From Bacteroidales bacterium (GTDB lineage: Bacteria > Bacteroidota > Bacteroidia > Bacteroidales > JAFGUD01): a DNA stretch of 64,000 bases. Made by a program: the position numbers and the translations under genes. The DNA lies in contig JAFGUD010000262.1 of NCBI GenBank assembly GCA_016938685.1, positions 1 through 64,000 on the forward strand, given 5' to 3'. Of the stretch, positions 4,859 through 55,750 are shown one piece after another (the stretch's first letter is position 1; each line of letters opens with the position of its first letter). The notes below the pieces were generated by a model. It did no database searches. It worked only from the letters and a program-made list of their open reading frames with translations, and was not told the DNA's origin.

Positions 4859-4865
4859 TTTAATA

Positions 4866-4991
4866 AATTAAGAACTAAGAATTAAGAACTAACAATGCAC
4901 AAATAACAATTAACAATTAACAATTAACAGCGTGCAAATAACAATGCACAAATAACAATGCACTTAACTATTAACTATTAATCATTAACTA
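4866..4991. repeat. Degenerate heptameric tandem array, 18 units in one phase
   Basis: AATTAAG AACTAAG AATTAAG AACTAAC AATGCAC AAATAAC AATTAAC AATTAAC AATTAAC AGCGTGC AAATAAC AATGCAC AAATAAC AATGCAC TTAACTA TTAACTA TTAATCA TTAACTA with no indel; runs into the last codons of the HD gene. Confidence 0.9.
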
Positions 4992-5538
4992 TAAGTCTTT
5001 CCTTGAATGGTAAAAAAGTCATGAAATCAGCATGATGAACAACATACGCTTCGGTTGAGCGTTTTACCATATTTCCTTCGCCTGCATGGGCGGCAATAAT
5101 ATGACAAACCTCTGCCGGAACTCCACATTGTTCTGCCAATGAAACACCTGAAAAAGGATGTCTTACGTATTTGCCGTAATTTCCTTGATAAGATTTACCA
5201 TTTTCATTTTTTTCATATTCCAATAATTTGCCAACATCAGCTAAAATTGCTCCTGCTATAAGAACGTCCATATCGACAGGAAGTTCATCTTTGAAAAAAT
5301 CTTTCATTTTTTCTCCACTTGCTTTTGCAATATGAACAACCGATTGTTTGTGATCCATAAAACTCACTTTCAAATCGGGTCCTGCTAACAATGTAAAAGG
5401 AATAACGAATAAATCGTCAGCGTTTAATTTGCTTTTTGCTAGTGCCAATTCCCATGTGTCTGCAACTTGTTGGCGCAACTCAGTGTTTTCAATCCACATA
5501 AGTTCTGTGCCCCATATTTTTTTTACTCTTTCAGTCAT
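4978..5538 (-). CDS. HD-domain phosphohydrolase-like protein
   Basis: 186 aa; HKQSVVHIAKASGEKM...AGAILADVGKLLEYEK...HPFSGVSLAE...HIIAAHAGEG pattern of HD-type proteins. Confidence 0.75.
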   Translation of the reverse strand: MTERVKKIWGTELMWIENTELRQQVADTWELALAKSKLNADDLFVIPFTLLAGPDLKVSFMDHKQSVVHIAKASGEKMKDFFKDELPVDMDVLIAGAILADVGKLLEYEKNENGKSYQGNYGKYVRHPFSGVSLAEQCGVPAEVCHIIAAHAGEGNMVKRSTEAYVVHHADFMTFLPFKERLIVND

Positions 5539-5683: not shown

Positions 5684-6760
5684 ATGAATTTTTTAGGTTT
5701 CAGAAATTGGTTTGATTCTTTATCAAATTGTTCGCATTTGGTAATTGCCGGTCCTTGTTCTGCTGAATCAGAAGAGCAGGTTTTGGACACAGCCAGACAA
5801 ATTTCTAAAATAGAACAAGTAAAAGTTTTTCGTGCAGGAGTTTGGAAACCAAGAACAAGTCCTAATGATTTTGAGGGAGTTGGAGAAATAGCATTAAAAT
5901 GGTTGAAAAAGGTAAAATCTGAAACAGGTTTACTTACATGCGTTGAAGTTGCTACCAGCAAACATGTTGAAAAATGTCTTGAAAATGATGTGGATATTTT
6001 TTGGGTTGGAGCCAGAACTGTTGCAAATCCATTTTCTGTTCAGTCAATTGCAGATGTTTTAAAGGGTGTTGACAAGCCTGTTTTAATAAAAAACCCCATA
6101 AATCCTGATTTAAAACTTTGGGTTGGGGCAATTGAAAGAATTTATAAAGCCGGAATAAATAAAATTGCTGCAATTCACAGGGGTTTTTATCCTTTTGAAG
6201 ACACCAGATTTAGAAATATTCCAAAATGGGAAATTCCAATTGAACTCAAAACTTTATTCCCAAATTTGCAAATTATTACTGATCCAAGTCATATTGCAGG
6301 GAAAATTGAACTTATAAAAGAAGTTGCTTCGCAGGCATTGTGTATGAATGTAGACGGCTTAATGATTGAAACTCATAATAATCCAAAAGTTGCTTTGAGT
6401 GATGCGTCTCAACAATTAACACCTTTGCAGTTAGATGTTTTATTAAAAGAATTAAAATTTAGAAAAGAACAAATTATAAATAAAGAATTACTTTCGGATC
6501 TTCAAAATTGGAGATTTCAAATAGATTCTCTTGATTTTCAAATGCTTGAATTACTTTCAAAACGAATGGAAATTGTTGAAAAAATGGGCAAATACAAAGA
6601 AGAGAGAAATATGAGTGTTTTTCAGCTGGAAAGATGGAAAGAAATTCGAGCAACAAGAATAAAAGCAGGAGAAGAATTAGGTCTTGATTCCGATTTTGTG
6701 AAAAAAATATTGCAAATAATACATAATCAATCAATAATAGCACAATCTAAAAACAAATAA
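5684..6760 (+). CDS. Bifunctional 3-deoxy-7-phosphoheptulonate synthase / chorismate mutase type II
   Basis: 358 aa; DAHP synthase core (VIAGPCSAES...FRAGVWKPRTSP...IKNPINPDLKLW) fused to C-terminal chorismate mutase (WRFQIDSLDFQMLELLSKRMEIVEKMGKYKEERN). Confidence 0.93.
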   Translation: MNFLGFRNWFDSLSNCSHLVIAGPCSAESEEQVLDTARQISKIEQVKVFRAGVWKPRTSPNDFEGVGEIALKWLKKVKSETGLLTCVEVATSKHVEKCLENDVDIFWVGARTVANPFSVQSIADVLKGVDKPVLIKNPINPDLKLWVGAIERIYKAGINKIAAIHRGFYPFEDTRFRNIPKWEIPIELKTLFPNLQIITDPSHIAGKIELIKEVASQALCMNVDGLMIETHNNPKVALSDASQQLTPLQLDVLLKELKFRKEQIINKELLSDLQNWRFQIDSLDFQMLELLSKRMEIVEKMGKYKEERNMSVFQLERWKEIRATRIKAGEELGLDSDFVKKILQIIHNQSIIAQSKNK

Positions 6761-39310: not shown

Positions 39311-39409
39311 TTTCAGTTTTCCAGTCTTTCAGTCCTCAGTCTTTCAAGAATCAGGTTTTCATCATTCTATTATTTAATCATTCTATCATTCAATAATTCT
39401 ATTATTCTT
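39311..39409. repeat. Degenerate 7/8-bp periodic array after the YgjP gene stop
   Basis: CAGTTTTC CAGTCTTT CAGTCCT CAGTCTTT CAAGAAT, then octamers TCATTCTA TTATTTAA TCATTCTA TCATTCAA TAATTCTA TTATTCTT (39362-39409). Confidence 0.7.
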
Positions 39410-46679: not shown

Positions 46680-46859
46680 CTTTTTACGCTTAGTTAAAGC
46701 TTAATTTTAGTTTTAAAACAAATTTTATCTCTTTTCAAAGTTATCAAAAAATTGACTAGTGCCAAAGTTAGTTTATTTTGAAAATTTAGGATTCCCGTTT
46801 TGTCAGTAGCAAAAATGGTGCAAATCATTAATGATGTGAGCTTAAATGAATAAAATTTA

Positions 46860-46894
46860 CTTCCAACTTCCGCCTTCCAACTCCCAACTCCAAG
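46860..46894. repeat. Short heptameric array, 5 units
   Basis: CTTCCAA CTTCCGC CTTCCAA CTCCCAA CTCCAAG, ~10 bp past the mazG stop. Confidence 0.75.
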
Positions 46895-46903
46895 CTATAA
46901 AAC

Positions 46904-49623: not shown

Positions 49624-51024
49624 GTGAAAGGGGTAGTTGTTAAATTCTTCATTTTTATTGCTTTTAGCAGTTTGTTGTTTTCTTGTGGAGATGATATTCC
49701 AAATACAAATGTCAATAATAATACTCAGAATTTGATTGACAGTTTGCCAAACCACAGACCAATTGACCAATACGCAAAGTTTATTTCAGGCTTTTCTGCT
49801 GAAGATTTTTCCGACTTTCAGCAAAAAGATATTTACAAAAGTTATTCAAATTCTAACGAAACAAATTGGAATTATTTCTCTGTTAATCAGTTACTTGTTA
49901 TCATGAACTGGGCTGAGAAAAATGCTGTTTCTTCTGCTGATGACACATCTACTGTTTTTTATCCTTTTGCCGGTCCTGATTTTACATTTGCTTATGCATT
50001 TTACCCTTATGCTAAAAATTATATTCTTATTGGTCTTGAAAATATTGGTGAAATTCCTGATTTGAAACAATATTCGGATCTTGAAATAGCAGAATTGTTA
50101 AATTCTATGACAGATGCTTTGGTAGAGTTTTATACGCAAGGTTATTTCAGCACGTTAAATATGAAATATAATTTCAGAAAAAATAATGTGAATGGAGTTG
50201 TTCATCCTTTGTTGTATTTTGTGTATCGTACTAATAATCAGATGATTGATTTTGAATATTTTGTTCTTGATGAATTTGGCCAACCCCAAAAAGTTGACAA
50301 ATTAGAGTCTTTGGACAAAAGAATAAAAGGGTTGAAAATTTCAATGACAGGAAAATTTGGTAATAAAGATTTATATTACTTGCAAGTAGATTTGTCCGAC
50401 GAAAATTTTGATGATTATCCGGAACTTATTGCTTTTGTTAGTAGTTTTGGAAATAAAAATACGTTTCTTAAATCTGCTTCATATTTGCTTCAAGATAATA
50501 AACTGTTAAAATTCAGAGATTTGTTAATTTCTCAGTCTTCAAAAATTATTCAAGATGACTCCGGTTTTGGATATAATTTTTTAAAATCCCATAATTTTGA
50601 TGTAAAAGTATTTGGTAATTATTCCCGTACTTTGAATCTTTTTCAGGATTTTTGGCAACCGGATTTAAAAGCTGAATTTGACAATCAAAATGCAAAAAAA
50701 TTACCTTTTCGTTTTGGTTACAATGTTCCTTTTGATGAAACAGCTATAATTTTTGCGCAATCTCAAACCTCAGAACAGCTTCAATATCCAATTTACAAAG
50801 TACAATTCAGAATGTCATGGGAAAAACTTCCGGTTGACAGCTTTCCGAATAATTTCAAAGAAATTGATTACTACTTTGACGAAGGTTATTACAAATACAC
50901 GTTAGGTAGCTTTCAAACAGAAGATGAATGTCGAGAAATGCTTGATTTTGTCAGAAAAAATGGCTACCAAGATGCCTTTATAGTAGAATTTAAAAAAGAA
51001 AGCAGAAGAACTATTAATAATTGA
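49624..51024 (+). CDS. Lipoprotein, unknown function
   Basis: 466 aa, GTG start; lipobox SSLLFSCGDD. C-terminal codons fall in the heptameric array. Confidence 0.62.
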   Translation: MKGVVVKFFIFIAFSSLLFSCGDDIPNTNVNNNTQNLIDSLPNHRPIDQYAKFISGFSAEDFSDFQQKDIYKSYSNSNETNWNYFSVNQLLVIMNWAEKNAVSSADDTSTVFYPFAGPDFTFAYAFYPYAKNYILIGLENIGEIPDLKQYSDLEIAELLNSMTDALVEFYTQGYFSTLNMKYNFRKNNVNGVVHPLLYFVYRTNNQMIDFEYFVLDEFGQPQKVDKLESLDKRIKGLKISMTGKFGNKDLYYLQVDLSDENFDDYPELIAFVSSFGNKNTFLKSASYLLQDNKLLKFRDLLISQSSKIIQDDSGFGYNFLKSHNFDVKVFGNYSRTLNLFQDFWQPDLKAEFDNQNAKKLPFRFGYNVPFDETAIIFAQSQTSEQLQYPIYKVQFRMSWEKLPVDSFPNNFKEIDYYFDEGYYKYTLGSFQTEDECREMLDFVRKNGYQDAFIVEFKKESRRTINN

Positions 51025-51177
51025 TAATTAATAATTGATAGTTAATAATTGATAGTTAATAATTGATAATTAATAGTTCAAGGTTCTTGTTTCTTAGCTT
51101 TTGACTCTTAGTTTTTCACTCTTATTTTTTAACTCTTATTTCTTATTTCTTAATTTTTATTTCTTAGTTCTTAATTT
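51010..51177. repeat. Degenerate heptameric tandem array, 24 units in one phase
   Basis: ACTATTA ATAATTG ATAATTA ATAATTG ATAGTTA ATAATTG ATAGTTA ATAATTG ATAATTA ATAGTTC AAGGTTC TTGTTTC TTAGCTT TTGACTC TTAGTTT TTCACTC TTATTTT TTAACTC TTATTTC TTATTTC TTAATTT TTATTTC TTAGTTC TTAATTT; no indel. Confidence 0.9.
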
Positions 51178-51178
51178 T

Positions 51179-54100
51179 TTAAAGTTCTCTCACAAGTGCG
51201 CCCCATTCTTTGTCTATTTTGAAATTATGTTTCAGGTAATAATTACCGAACAGAAAATGAGCTTTTATCATTTTAAAACCTTTGGCTTTCATTCTGTTGA
51301 AAAAATCTTCAAGCATATTAGAACCTATTCCGCGACTATGAAGAGCAGAAGTAACTGCCATTCCGTCGATTAAGGCAATATTATTTTCAAGCTCTTTGTA
51401 ACACAAACCGGCAATTACTTGCTCGCGTTGATTTACAACCACAAAATGTTTGTCCATTTGAGAAATTTCTTTTGGATAGTTTTCTTTGAAAAATAATTTG
51501 TAAACTTCTCCAACTTCGCTGGCATCAATCGGTTCACGCATTGTGTATTCTGCTCCTTTTTTATCTGAAATTTTCGAATAAACAACAAGATGTTCGCTTT
51601 TCTTTTCACCAACTTTTTTGAAATCAATGAATTTTCTGTCTTTTAAATCAGGAAATACAAGTTTATTAAAAATAACTTTATCTTCTTCGGTTGTCAATTC
51701 TGCCTGCAAATCTGAGAGTTCTGTTAATTGAATTGCCAGAGTTTCAGGTTCTTCGTACATTTTGTTCAAAACATTATCAAACAAGTTTTTTACATTGTCA
51801 TTAGAATTGTTGAAGTAAGTTTCACGATAAAATTTATACCTGACTATCTCTGTGTATTGATTTAGTTTATATAGTTCGAATAATTCATCAATAGTATGAA
51901 TTTTTGCAAAAGTACTTGCTTTCGCATTTCTTTTGTTCCAGTCAAGATAACGGTCAACTGCATTAAATAAAGCTAGCGGTAAATAATGTTGATCTTTAGA
52001 CACATTAATGTATTTAATTGCCTGATCTTTAAGCTCAATACAGCATTGAGTAGGGGACTCGCAACATTCAATTTCTTTGATAAATCCGGATAGAATGGAA
52101 ATTGTTTCTGTTTTTCCAACTGCTTCTACAAGTGCATGAAACATCCAGGTGTTTTTCAAAAAACGTTTAAGGGCAGGGTAGTGGGCAACTGTTTTTTCAT
52201 AAAAATTGACATTTATTGCTGAAATTATGTCTTTTATAGTTCCAACTTTTTTGTGAGCTGAAAGTGATAAAATTCTAACATTATCAGAAAAATCAATTTC
52301 AGGAACAACAACGTTTTCAGGTGCCACAAATCCCGGTAATACTTCCCGATACGAATTATTCCATGCTTTAAAAAATGCACTTATTGAACGAATAAATATT
52401 TTTCGCCAGAAATTTTTGTCTTCTATATAGCCTATTTGTTGAATCTCAGCCATAGAACGAATTTTATCCCATGCCGAAAGTTGACTTATATATCGGGTAG
52501 TGAAAATTTGTTCATCGGGCATTACATAACCAAATTGTGCAACCGAAGGACTATCAAATGGATAACCGGAAAGTGCAATGTGCATGTGAATTGTGTCAAT
52601 TCGGCTTTCGTTTGGTAATTTTGGGTCAATAGAAATGTGTATATCAAAGTGCTTGCCACACAATGTGTTGATACTCATTCTAAAATGTTTAGATGAGCGG
52701 TAATTTTTCAATCTGGAAATTCTAATACAGCCGGGAGATAATGTTTTATAATCAAATTCAAAATCATCATAAGCCATAAAAACTGATAATTTTAGGAAAT
52801 GATTTTTCTTTAATTTTGATTTTAAAGTGGTTTGAAATTTTTCTGAAATTCCTTCATCGAAAATAAAATAGTTATTCCAATTTTTCTCGCTAATGTTTTT
52901 TGTATTTTTGGAAACGTAATTTTCAAATTCATAGTGTAATTTTTTAAAAAATTCTTTCGCTTTTTCTGAAAGATAAGGTTCTTTTTTGAATAGTTTCCAA
53001 CTTGCGAATTCTGCTCGTAAAGCTTTGTAATAGTGAGGATTAGTTTTTCCGAAATTTAAGAGCAATTCAAATATTTTTTCAAATTGATCTCTGGTTAAAT
53101 CATTTGCCGGCCATTGTAAACCCAATCGATATGCGTGCATTCTTCGCCTAAAAGCTTGCAATTGTCTGAAATCAATATTCGATTGTGCTATTTTTTTAAT
53201 AGAAGCTTCATTTAAAAATGTTTTGCCGGAATTAATAAACGAAGGTAAAATTTTTGAATAATCCGGATCGGGAGCCATTGAAATTAGAATTTGATAAGCA
53301 AAAACTCTTATTTTTTCTGATGGATGACAAGCTAAACTCTCTAATCTTCTTTTAATTATGTCAACTTTGTTTTTATCATAAGACGAAAACATGTTTTCTA
53401 ATTGGTTTAGATTCTGAACAGAAGATTTTGTGTCTGAGTGAAGAATGATTGATAGTAAGTTATTTAAAAATATAAGTTCCGGGTCATTAATTCCTTTTAC
53501 CTGATGAAAAGCGGATAATGTATAGAGTTTCCGTTTTTCCGGAATACAAATTTGAGAAGTGAAATTTTTGAGTGGCAAATCGTAGTTGGTTTTAACTGGC
53601 GCAAAACTAGTAAGTTGCGGATTGGCAATCCATAATTTTGGTTGATGAACAATTCTTCCAATGTCTATTTTTTTATCTGAAACACAATAAGATAAATCGC
53701 CAACAACAAAATAATTTTCACGCTGACATTTAGCAACTCTAAGTTTCATATTTGTGACATTGTTAACTAATTCTTTGTTAACTAACTCGATATCAGTTTC
53801 TAAAATTCCCCAATCTCTGATAAGCCATCTTGGAATAATAATTTTGTAATCTTCAACCTCAAAACTTATATGATCAGCTTTATAAAGCGTTTTTATCAGT
53901 TCTGAGAAGTTTTTTTCAATATTTTTTCTTTTGTATGAACCTTTTGCAGTTACTTCTTCTAAGTCTTCCGAAAAATCTCTGTCAATTACGGCAAAATTAA
54001 TTACTCTTTCGTAAGGAGCTAAATCTGCATTTGCTGCAATTACAATCTGTCGGAAATATTCATGTTTATTTTTTTCGTCAGTTATAGCAGAAAAAACGGG

Positions 54101-55750
54101 ATCTGTTTTGTCGGGAACAATCAATAAAACATTATATGGCAAACCATCACCTACAAGAAATGTTCTTTTTATTCCCGGAACGCCGTCAAATTTTGATTCG
54201 GCACTACGTGGAGAAACCGTTTGTCCTTTATTGTTTTTGTAAATGTCTTTTAATCTGTCGATTATCTCATGATGTCCATCTTCTGAAATGGTAAAAATAT
54301 CGCCTGTCGAAAGCCAATACTCTTCGTCTTCAGGATAAGGAATAATATCATTGGGTCCTGAGTCTTCAAGATATTTTGCAAGATAATGGCTACAAATTTC
54401 AAGTTCTTGGTTATCGTTTAATCTAGTACACATTCCGGGCAAAGGCACGCCAACTGAGCCTTCCTGATAATTAAAAGAATCGGTCATTGTTATTCCGCCA
54501 GTTGCTTCTGTCATTCCAAATCCGCTGTTTAGTGAAATGCCGAATTTGTGGAAGAATTTGAACACTTTTGGGTCAAGATAGCCGGCTGCTGACAAGCCCC
54601 AGTGAAGTCTTGTTCCAACAACGCTTTTTATTATTTTTAAAACGTGTTCATCAGATTCGGTTCCGTTTAGACTGTTTGTTACGGTTTCGTAAAATTGTAA
54701 CCATCTGACAGGTACGCTAATAAATCCGGTTGGGTTAACTTCGGGGAAAATTTTAGATAAAGAAGAAATTGAGGGAGTATCAGACATAACATAAGTGCCG
54801 CCCCAGAAAATAGTTCCGGTTAATTCTAAAAATCTTCCAAATGTGTGAAAAAGAGGTAGATAGCATACAAAAACTTCGTCTTTGCCCACTTGAGGTAATG
54901 CAGCAGCTCTACAAAATCTTTTGCTAACTATATTGTAAATTGAAAATGAAACTCCTTTTGGCAAACCTGTACTTCCTGATGTGAACATTGTGGTTGCAAC
55001 TTGGTTTAAAGGTTTTATTTCTCTTTGAGATAATATTTTATCAGATTCTGGTTTAGTAATTTTTTTACATTCTTTGCCTAAAAAATAATCTACTTCCTCA
55101 AAACCTGAAAGCTTTTCATCTGTTGCAATTATTTCAATTTCTTTACCGGATTTTTTCATAGCTTCTATTGCAAGTTTTAACCTGTCATGATTATCAGTTA
55201 TTACAAAATCAAAGTCAATTAAATTGAATATATATGCTAAATTTTCGGCGTTAAAATGAACATTAAGCGGAGTGTCAAAAATATCAAACATTAAACATGC
55301 AAGGTCAACAGAAGCTGCTTCAATACTGTTGTCCATAAAAATAAGCACTTTTGGGTTATTTGGCTTAATTTTATAAATAAAAGACGCTATTTCTCGCGCA
55401 TGAGCATAAACTTGTTCATAAGTCCATTTACGGTAATTATTGTTTGTCTTTTCAAGGAACAAAGTTTTTTGAGGATGTTCAATTAGTCTTTGTTCGTATA
55501 AATTATGGAAATTAAATTCTATTTTTCTTATAACATCAAGAACTATTTTCACCCAATTATTTCTGTTTTCGTCAGTTTCAAGTGCTGTTAAAAATTCACT
55601 TCTGCGACTATAATTTAGAAAATCGTAGAGTAATTTTTTATCAGATTTATTCTCATTCAATAATTTTTCAGCATCAGCTAATATTTGCAGAGTATTTGTA
55701 TTGTCGAAAATATTTTTTTCGAATAATTCTTTTATGTTTTCTATTGTCAT
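51179..55750 (-). CDS. Giant fusion: AMP-forming acyl-CoA ligase-like domain, unassigned middle region, C-terminal GNAT acetyltransferase
   Basis: 1523 aa; MFTSGSTGLPKGVSFS, GFGMTEATGGI, YWLSTGDIF (ANL motifs); C-terminus IDGMAVTSALHSRGIGSNMLEDFFNRMKAKGFKMIKAHF (GNAT). Confidence 0.85.
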   Translation of the reverse strand: MTIENIKELFEKNIFDNTNTLQILADAEKLLNENKSDKKLLYDFLNYSRRSEFLTALETDENRNNWVKIVLDVIRKIEFNFHNLYEQRLIEHPQKTLFLEKTNNNYRKWTYEQVYAHAREIASFIYKIKPNNPKVLIFMDNSIEAASVDLACLMFDIFDTPLNVHFNAENLAYIFNLIDFDFVITDNHDRLKLAIEAMKKSGKEIEIIATDEKLSGFEEVDYFLGKECKKITKPESDKILSQREIKPLNQVATTMFTSGSTGLPKGVSFSIYNIVSKRFCRAAALPQVGKDEVFVCYLPLFHTFGRFLELTGTIFWGGTYVMSDTPSISSLSKIFPEVNPTGFISVPVRWLQFYETVTNSLNGTESDEHVLKIIKSVVGTRLHWGLSAAGYLDPKVFKFFHKFGISLNSGFGMTEATGGITMTDSFNYQEGSVGVPLPGMCTRLNDNQELEICSHYLAKYLEDSGPNDIIPYPEDEEYWLSTGDIFTISEDGHHEIIDRLKDIYKNNKGQTVSPRSAESKFDGVPGIKRTFLVGDGLPYNVLLIVPDKTDPVFSAITDEKNKHEYFRQIVIAANADLAPYERVINFAVIDRDFSEDLEEVTAKGSYKRKNIEKNFSELIKTLYKADHISFEVEDYKIIIPRWLIRDWGILETDIELVNKELVNNVTNMKLRVAKCQRENYFVVGDLSYCVSDKKIDIGRIVHQPKLWIANPQLTSFAPVKTNYDLPLKNFTSQICIPEKRKLYTLSAFHQVKGINDPELIFLNNLLSIILHSDTKSSVQNLNQLENMFSSYDKNKVDIIKRRLESLACHPSEKIRVFAYQILISMAPDPDYSKILPSFINSGKTFLNEASIKKIAQSNIDFRQLQAFRRRMHAYRLGLQWPANDLTRDQFEKIFELLLNFGKTNPHYYKALRAEFASWKLFKKEPYLSEKAKEFFKKLHYEFENYVSKNTKNISEKNWNNYFIFDEGISEKFQTTLKSKLKKNHFLKLSVFMAYDDFEFDYKTLSPGCIRISRLKNYRSSKHFRMSINTLCGKHFDIHISIDPKLPNESRIDTIHMHIALSGYPFDSPSVAQFGYVMPDEQIFTTRYISQLSAWDKIRSMAEIQQIGYIEDKNFWRKIFIRSISAFFKAWNNSYREVLPGFVAPENVVVPEIDFSDNVRILSLSAHKKVGTIKDIISAINVNFYEKTVAHYPALKRFLKNTWMFHALVEAVGKTETISILSGFIKEIECCESPTQCCIELKDQAIKYINVSKDQHYLPLALFNAVDRYLDWNKRNAKASTFAKIHTIDELFELYKLNQYTEIVRYKFYRETYFNNSNDNVKNLFDNVLNKMYEEPETLAIQLTELSDLQAELTTEEDKVIFNKLVFPDLKDRKFIDFKKVGEKKSEHLVVYSKISDKKGAEYTMREPIDASEVGEVYKLFFKENYPKEISQMDKHFVVVNQREQVIAGLCYKELENNIALIDGMAVTSALHSRGIGSNMLEDFFNRMKAKGFKMIKAHFLFGNYYLKHNFKIDKEWGALVREL

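Follow-up and report, generated by a model that had tools for sequence, protein, structure and literature searches.

The gap between two convergent genes of a Bacteroidales genome is occupied by an intergenic tandem array of about 24 copies of a 7-bp unit with a variable word (51010–51177), which is probably one copy of a dispersed, heterogeneous, STRR-like heptamer array that was expanded by slippage and is largely neutral. Such arrays probably expand through errors in copying, not because they do a specific job, and we do not think that this one has a gene-specific function. The analysed window is a stretch of 64,000 nucleotides (C549:1–64000) from an assembly of 4.75 Mb in 555 contigs (G000, hereafter this genome); judged by sequence, the named relatives nearest to it are Bacteroidales MAGs.

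The heptamer periodicity claimed in the first-pass annotation proved to be real. Compared with 1000 dinucleotide-preserving shuffles of 51010–51177, identity reached 0.68 at lag 7 (z 8.7; shuffle maximum 0.50), 0.79 at lag 14 (z 11.8; shuffle maximum 0.48) and 0.68 at lag 21 (z 8.8; shuffle maximum 0.50), and each half of the interval was significant by itself. TRF reported 14-bp units at 51013–51075 (95% matches) and 51092–51174 (82%), as well as a 21-bp unit at 51106–51179 (79%). Against shuffles of the unit order, an excess was seen at two-unit spacing only, in each half (z 3.0 and 2.7), so the real duplication step is mostly two heptamers (14 bp). The array is weakest around 51088–51120, where neighbouring 7-mers match poorly and alternate 7-mers match. 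These two-unit steps and the recurrence of blocks described below agree with the earlier view that simple slippage of one unit does not give such a structure, yet slippage of several units at a time explains it locally. The further claim that every base of the gap can be laid out in one phase with no indel holds for the 7-bp period, but a single phase is only weakly testable: the right part of the array fits the column profile of the left part equally well in rotations 0 and 4, thus one phase throughout is possible and not demanded. As for every base, 134 of the 154 bp between the two stop codons (51025–51178) score as array under a strict threshold; a further 12 of the sampled gaps likewise consist almost wholly of array.

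Two blocks make up the array. The left block (51010–51079, plus strand; ATAATTG/ATAATTA/ATAGTTA, about 10 copies) has a strong 14-bp higher-order repeat and runs over the final codons of the left gene, which are themselves array-like (ACT ATT AAT AAT TGA). The right block (51080–51179, minus strand), with the units TTATTTC/TTAGTTC/TTAATTT/TTAACTC, starts at the stop codon of the right gene. Read on the minus strand, AAGAACT-type units (AAGAAAT, AAGAACT, AAGAGTT and similar ones, block 1) are followed by AATTATC/AATTATT-type units (AATTATC, AATTATT, AACTATC and AACTATT, block 2). The two types, previously described as drifting sequence, are two blocks of one word family, in which AAYT is combined with AAG, ATT, ATC or AAC. 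Across four whole-genome pattern searches, 10 loci had the blocks in this order and one had them reversed (0.012 by sign test; 0.02 when two loci with a common flanking repeat are counted as one); two of the ten, on C347 and C484, are also alike in the DNA preceding the array. A relaxed word-order scan of 955 kb gave 8 versus 8, and most of its clusters were scattered words outside arrays, thus the stricter patterns were relied upon; the four clear arrays in the relaxed scan (C347, C14, C435 and C69) all had one order. The constant order suggests that composite arrays are copied between loci or that one type regularly grows onto the other.

Comparable arrays are common across the genome. In the gaps of the 955 kb on which the genome-wide counts rest (20% of this genome), tandem repeats with a period of 7 were found in 44 gaps, of 8 in 48 and of 9 in 7, multiples were also seen at 14 and 16, and periods 2–6 and 10–13 were at or about the shuffled level. 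Genes are nearly free of period-7 arrays (7 of 752, as opposed to 44 of 565 gaps), and the peak at 7, 8 and 9 bp is almost lacking from shuffled sequence too. The sister species G001, of which about 23% was sampled, had the same peaks at a lower level, with periods 7, 8 and 9 in 7, 10 and 6 of 444 gaps. These figures overestimate array density because many of the sampled contigs had been picked via pattern-search matches, though that choice should have little effect on the shape of the spectrum. Duplication steps of two or three units were found in the arrays, and multi-unit repeats occur elsewhere as well (a 16-bp repeat of 97% in C151, an 18-bp repeat of 92% in C230). Several contigs have an end that falls within an 8- or 9-bp array (C69, C77, C151, C161, C197 and C230 of this genome, C86, C123 and C158 of the sister). 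The arrays therefore probably break assembly, so that their number is underestimated, and in practice they are likely to be a reason why assemblies are fragmented.

Within the window, the same family supplies another heptamer array, at 4861–4994 (plus strand; AATTAAG, AACTAAG, AACTAAC, AATGCAC, AATTAAC, then AACTATT), and a heptamer array of a different word family (AACTTCC) lies at 46859–46896 (plus strand). Arrays of the same style with 8- and 9-bp units had escaped the first-pass annotation; one of them, with 8-bp units from the GAATRATW family (AATGATAG/AATAATTG), is at 39357–39408 on the minus strand. Its words are ATCATTCT/ATTATTCT, and its minus strand belongs to the GAATGATA family, which has about 200 pattern matches in the genome. 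Rfam gave no match anywhere in the 64-kb window.

The arrays consist of a fixed anchor plus 3–5 variable bases. Besides the family of the array under study, there is another 7-mer family (ACTGGTT/ACTGGTC), two 8-mer families (AACTGGTT/AACTCGAT and GAATGATA/GAATAATA/GAATGATT) and a 9-mer family (AACTTTAAG/AACTTTACA). Words are common to many loci: GAATGATA occurs at 20, AACTGGTT at 11 and AATTATT at 48, the last count being partly due to chance as the word is AT-rich. The 8-mer AACT pattern matched 252 times in this genome, 68 times in G001, three times in G002 and, in 57 further genomes from the order, no more than seven times each. The GAAT pattern had 198, 11 and 8 matches in the same three genomes; a genome from another family had 91 and draws on another selection of the words (AATCATTG, AATAATTG). 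Of 295 genomes in the class, 46 contain the 7-mer family of the array under study, and many of them prefer words of their own, although this figure is soft since a reversed-pattern control scores in some of them too, as AT-rich periodic DNA can match in both directions. In G001, a mixed 8-/9-bp array (C235:426–747, L226) combines AGTTATCG, AGTTTATTG and AGTTTTCG, which have the anchor GAGTT in common; the corresponding gap in this genome is array-free.

A more active origin would be a genus-wide generator which, instead of passive slippage, places anchored 7-, 8- and 9-bp arrays, drawn from a dictionary particular to each species, at intergenic sites not previously occupied, and we consider it extremely unlikely. 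DRT10- or telomerase-like templated synthesis followed by integration could serve as its mechanism by analogy, as a distant possibility. The cDNA produced by DRT10 is a tandem repeat with a short anchor (A-B-A′), the units being 9 nt long in one case and spanning various lengths in others (PMC12632851), which resembles the fixed anchor, the 3–5 variable bases and the periods of 7, 8 and 9 seen here. Reverse transcriptase domains are also encoded in this genome (three RVT_1 matches, C506:925–1635, C269:32719–33339 and C89:19414–19791) and in its congeners (two each). However, RVT_1 domains are common in bacteria, the many words per array are at odds with a single template and there is no known case of DRT10 cDNA integrating, thus the idea that such an enzyme synthesized the anchored 7–9-nt repeats, which were later integrated, is scarcely credible.

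The left gene (49624–51024, plus strand, 466 aa), called a lipoprotein in the first-pass annotation, has no Pfam match but has homologues in the order; homologues align up to residue 464. The right gene (51179–55750, minus strand) encodes a 1523-aa protein with an AMP-binding enzyme domain and a C-terminal GNAT acetyltransferase domain, the end of which (...WGALVREL stop) corresponds to the C-terminal ends of its relatives, therefore the array abuts a natural stop codon. In G001, where the right gene is 78% identical at the amino-acid level, another, codirectional gene lies downstream and there is no array. The array is absent from the nearest genome with the 1523-aa gene, whose DNA is 74% identical across the gene. 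Among the other relatives with readable downstream DNA, only the distant L080 (57% identity) carries a heptamer array (6522–6590), directly after the stop codon of the gene, and it is composed of other words (AAAGTTG/AAAGGTA).

The position of the array, filling the space between two stop codons, and the partial ability of its A-rich left and T-rich right halves to pair would suit a transcription terminator or an insulator of the convergent gene pair. The relatives of the 1523-aa gene manage without the array, however, and convergent gaps are not enriched in arrays over codirectional ones (12 of 47 versus 73 of 292). Moreover, no terminator-like site (a G+C-rich hairpin followed by a T run) was found in 50900–51300, and the folding energy was no better than that of shuffled sequences (z −0.85 on the plus and +0.82 on the minus strand). 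The terminator or RNA-structure reading was rejected on the last two grounds, and any such role for the convergent pair is very unlikely.

Comparison with the sister species revealed near-complete gain or loss of arrays between congeners. Among 69 collinear gaps shared with G001 (median amino-acid identity 70%), 10 contained an array in either species: five in this genome only, four in the sister only and one in both, the latter with different words. The lengths of array-bearing gaps and their array-free partners (316/92, 116/26, 113/34, 213/87 and 321/113 bp) show that the gap with the array is usually the longer of the pair, which indicates that arrays are mostly additions. Their placement is not even. 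Considering gaps of at least 60 bp, arrays were found in 4 of 85 divergent gaps (5%) versus 85 of 339 others (25%; p = 1e-5). In the sample they lie closer to the 3′-ends of genes (median distance 17 bp) than to the 5′-ends (60 bp), and 34 of 70 are within 15 bp of a 3′-end.

This preference for 3′-ends, the fixed anchor columns and the sharing of words by many loci could mean that the arrays are bound by a protein that recognizes DNA or RNA, such as a cold-shock-like protein whose OB fold contacts about seven bases, with a role at mRNA 3′-ends or in nucleoid organization; a post-transcriptional role was proposed by MacGregor for TAACTGA arrays (PMC4679880). Against this, no array was conserved in sequence at an orthologous gap, the words vary between genomes of the class, and the A-rich strand of the 7-mer arrays is the gene strand only about half the time (18 versus 15). 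Nor are the anchor columns spared by private mutations: the ratios of private variants in anchor and variable columns (9:13 and 6.5:8.5) are proportional to column width, with low power owing to the small counts (22 and 15 events). As conserved and variable columns are hit alike, there is no sign of a constrained binding site, and we regard this explanation as unlikely.

The different downstream neighbour of the 1523-aa gene in the sister species and the homology offered by dispersed arrays would fit with arrays being scars or hot spots of rearrangement, where breakpoints arise from recombination between arrays or from end joining, an idea raised by MacGregor for Gramella (PMC4679880). Yet arrays were present at 7 of 52 synteny breaks and in 6 of 67 collinear gaps, a difference that is not significant, so the sample does not support them as breakpoint markers and this origin is very unlikely. 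No significant association of arrays with other dispersed repeats was found either (p 0.15). Dispersed hairpin repeats (AAAAAAAGTCCCGGAGGGACGACC..., GTTTCGACG...GTCGGAAC, AAGAAAGTGCCGTTAGGTACGT) adjoin some arrays (L003 1500–1800, and upstream of the array in L150 and L155), and the hairpin repeat together with the adjoining heptamer array is common to L150 and L155. Another dispersed repeat, GTCACTCCGACG.TAGGAGG.GTCTA...CTTCGGAGTA, lies near arrays in L146 (about 1390–1490) and L160 (after 1560).

Considering these results, we favour expansion of a largely neutral, dispersed array. Slippage or unequal exchange by several units explains the local structure and the turnover, and tolerance behind stop codons explains the placement. 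Since independent slippage alone leaves the shared multi-word sets and the block order unexplained, we infer that a seeding step is also needed. A short multi-word array would be seeded in a gap via ectopic copying or recombination from another array, would then lengthen or shorten several units at a time through slippage or unequal exchange, and would diverge by ordinary mutation. Such an array may persist wherever it damages no promoter, which mostly means behind a stop codon. For the gap studied here, the outcome would be the present pair of neighbouring blocks, which together take up the DNA from one stop codon to the other. The copying route gains no direct support from synteny breaks or other dispersed repeats, as the arrays are linked to neither. 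Heptamer arrays have so far been reported piecemeal from distant bacteria, and their origin is not agreed. In a genome where 7-, 8- and 9-bp families coexist, draw on common dictionaries, have ordered blocks and turn over almost fully between two congeners, two questions that tend to be treated as one can be told apart: what favours periods of 7–9 bp, and by what means identical words come to lie at many loci. Close strains or long reads make both testable.

The first-pass annotation knew of no named equivalent in Bacteroidota, but arrays of the heptamer TAACTGA, mixed with other heptamers, were described in five Bacteroidetes by MacGregor (2015), the direct repeats being found in marine Beggiatoaceae and cyanobacteria as well; close strains differ by 7-nt steps, and a sister species may be without the array (PMC4679880). 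The arrays described here are similar in their 7-bp unit, intergenic location, mixture of heptamers and possible absence in a sister species; TAACTGA itself is absent from 51010–51177. In Beggiatoaceae, one fixed word is repeated, mostly just upstream of start codons and in forward orientation (PMC4679880), whereas here many words occur per array, the arrays lean towards gene 3′-ends and the gap under study is convergent. The likeness to cyanobacterial STRRs drawn in the first-pass annotation is sound: like those of Calothrix and Anabaena/Nostoc, the arrays have a 7-bp unit and are intergenic, dispersed, heterogeneous and near gene ends, and divergent gaps are under-used, as by GGGGAYT in Nostoc sp. 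PCC 7120 (PMC4692102). Unlike STRR/GGGGAYT, they have AT-rich words, no G-quadruplex potential (there is no GGG within the array under study) and parallel 8- and 9-bp families. The GGGANTN repeats of Xanthomonas (Rehm 2015, PMC4692102) are also heterogeneous, dispersed and non-coding, with conserved and variable columns, and are depleted in divergent gaps, but they are G-rich, typically have four units and mostly occupy the same gaps in two species, in contrast to the lack of orthologous conservation here. According to Mrazek (2007), as reported in PMC4679880 and PMC4692102, heptamers are the commonest class of long SSRs in prokaryotes, and slippage related to polymerase contacts was proposed; as far as these reports go, statistically long simple repeats were scored there, unlike the drifting units found here, among which period 8 is as common as 7. 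Octamer arrays in Bacteroidota were not described in the open-access literature searched. What looks new is that 7-, 8- and 9-bp families run in parallel and that the block order is fixed; the array itself belongs to a known kind, the STRR-type dispersed heptamer arrays, of which it is a richer case.
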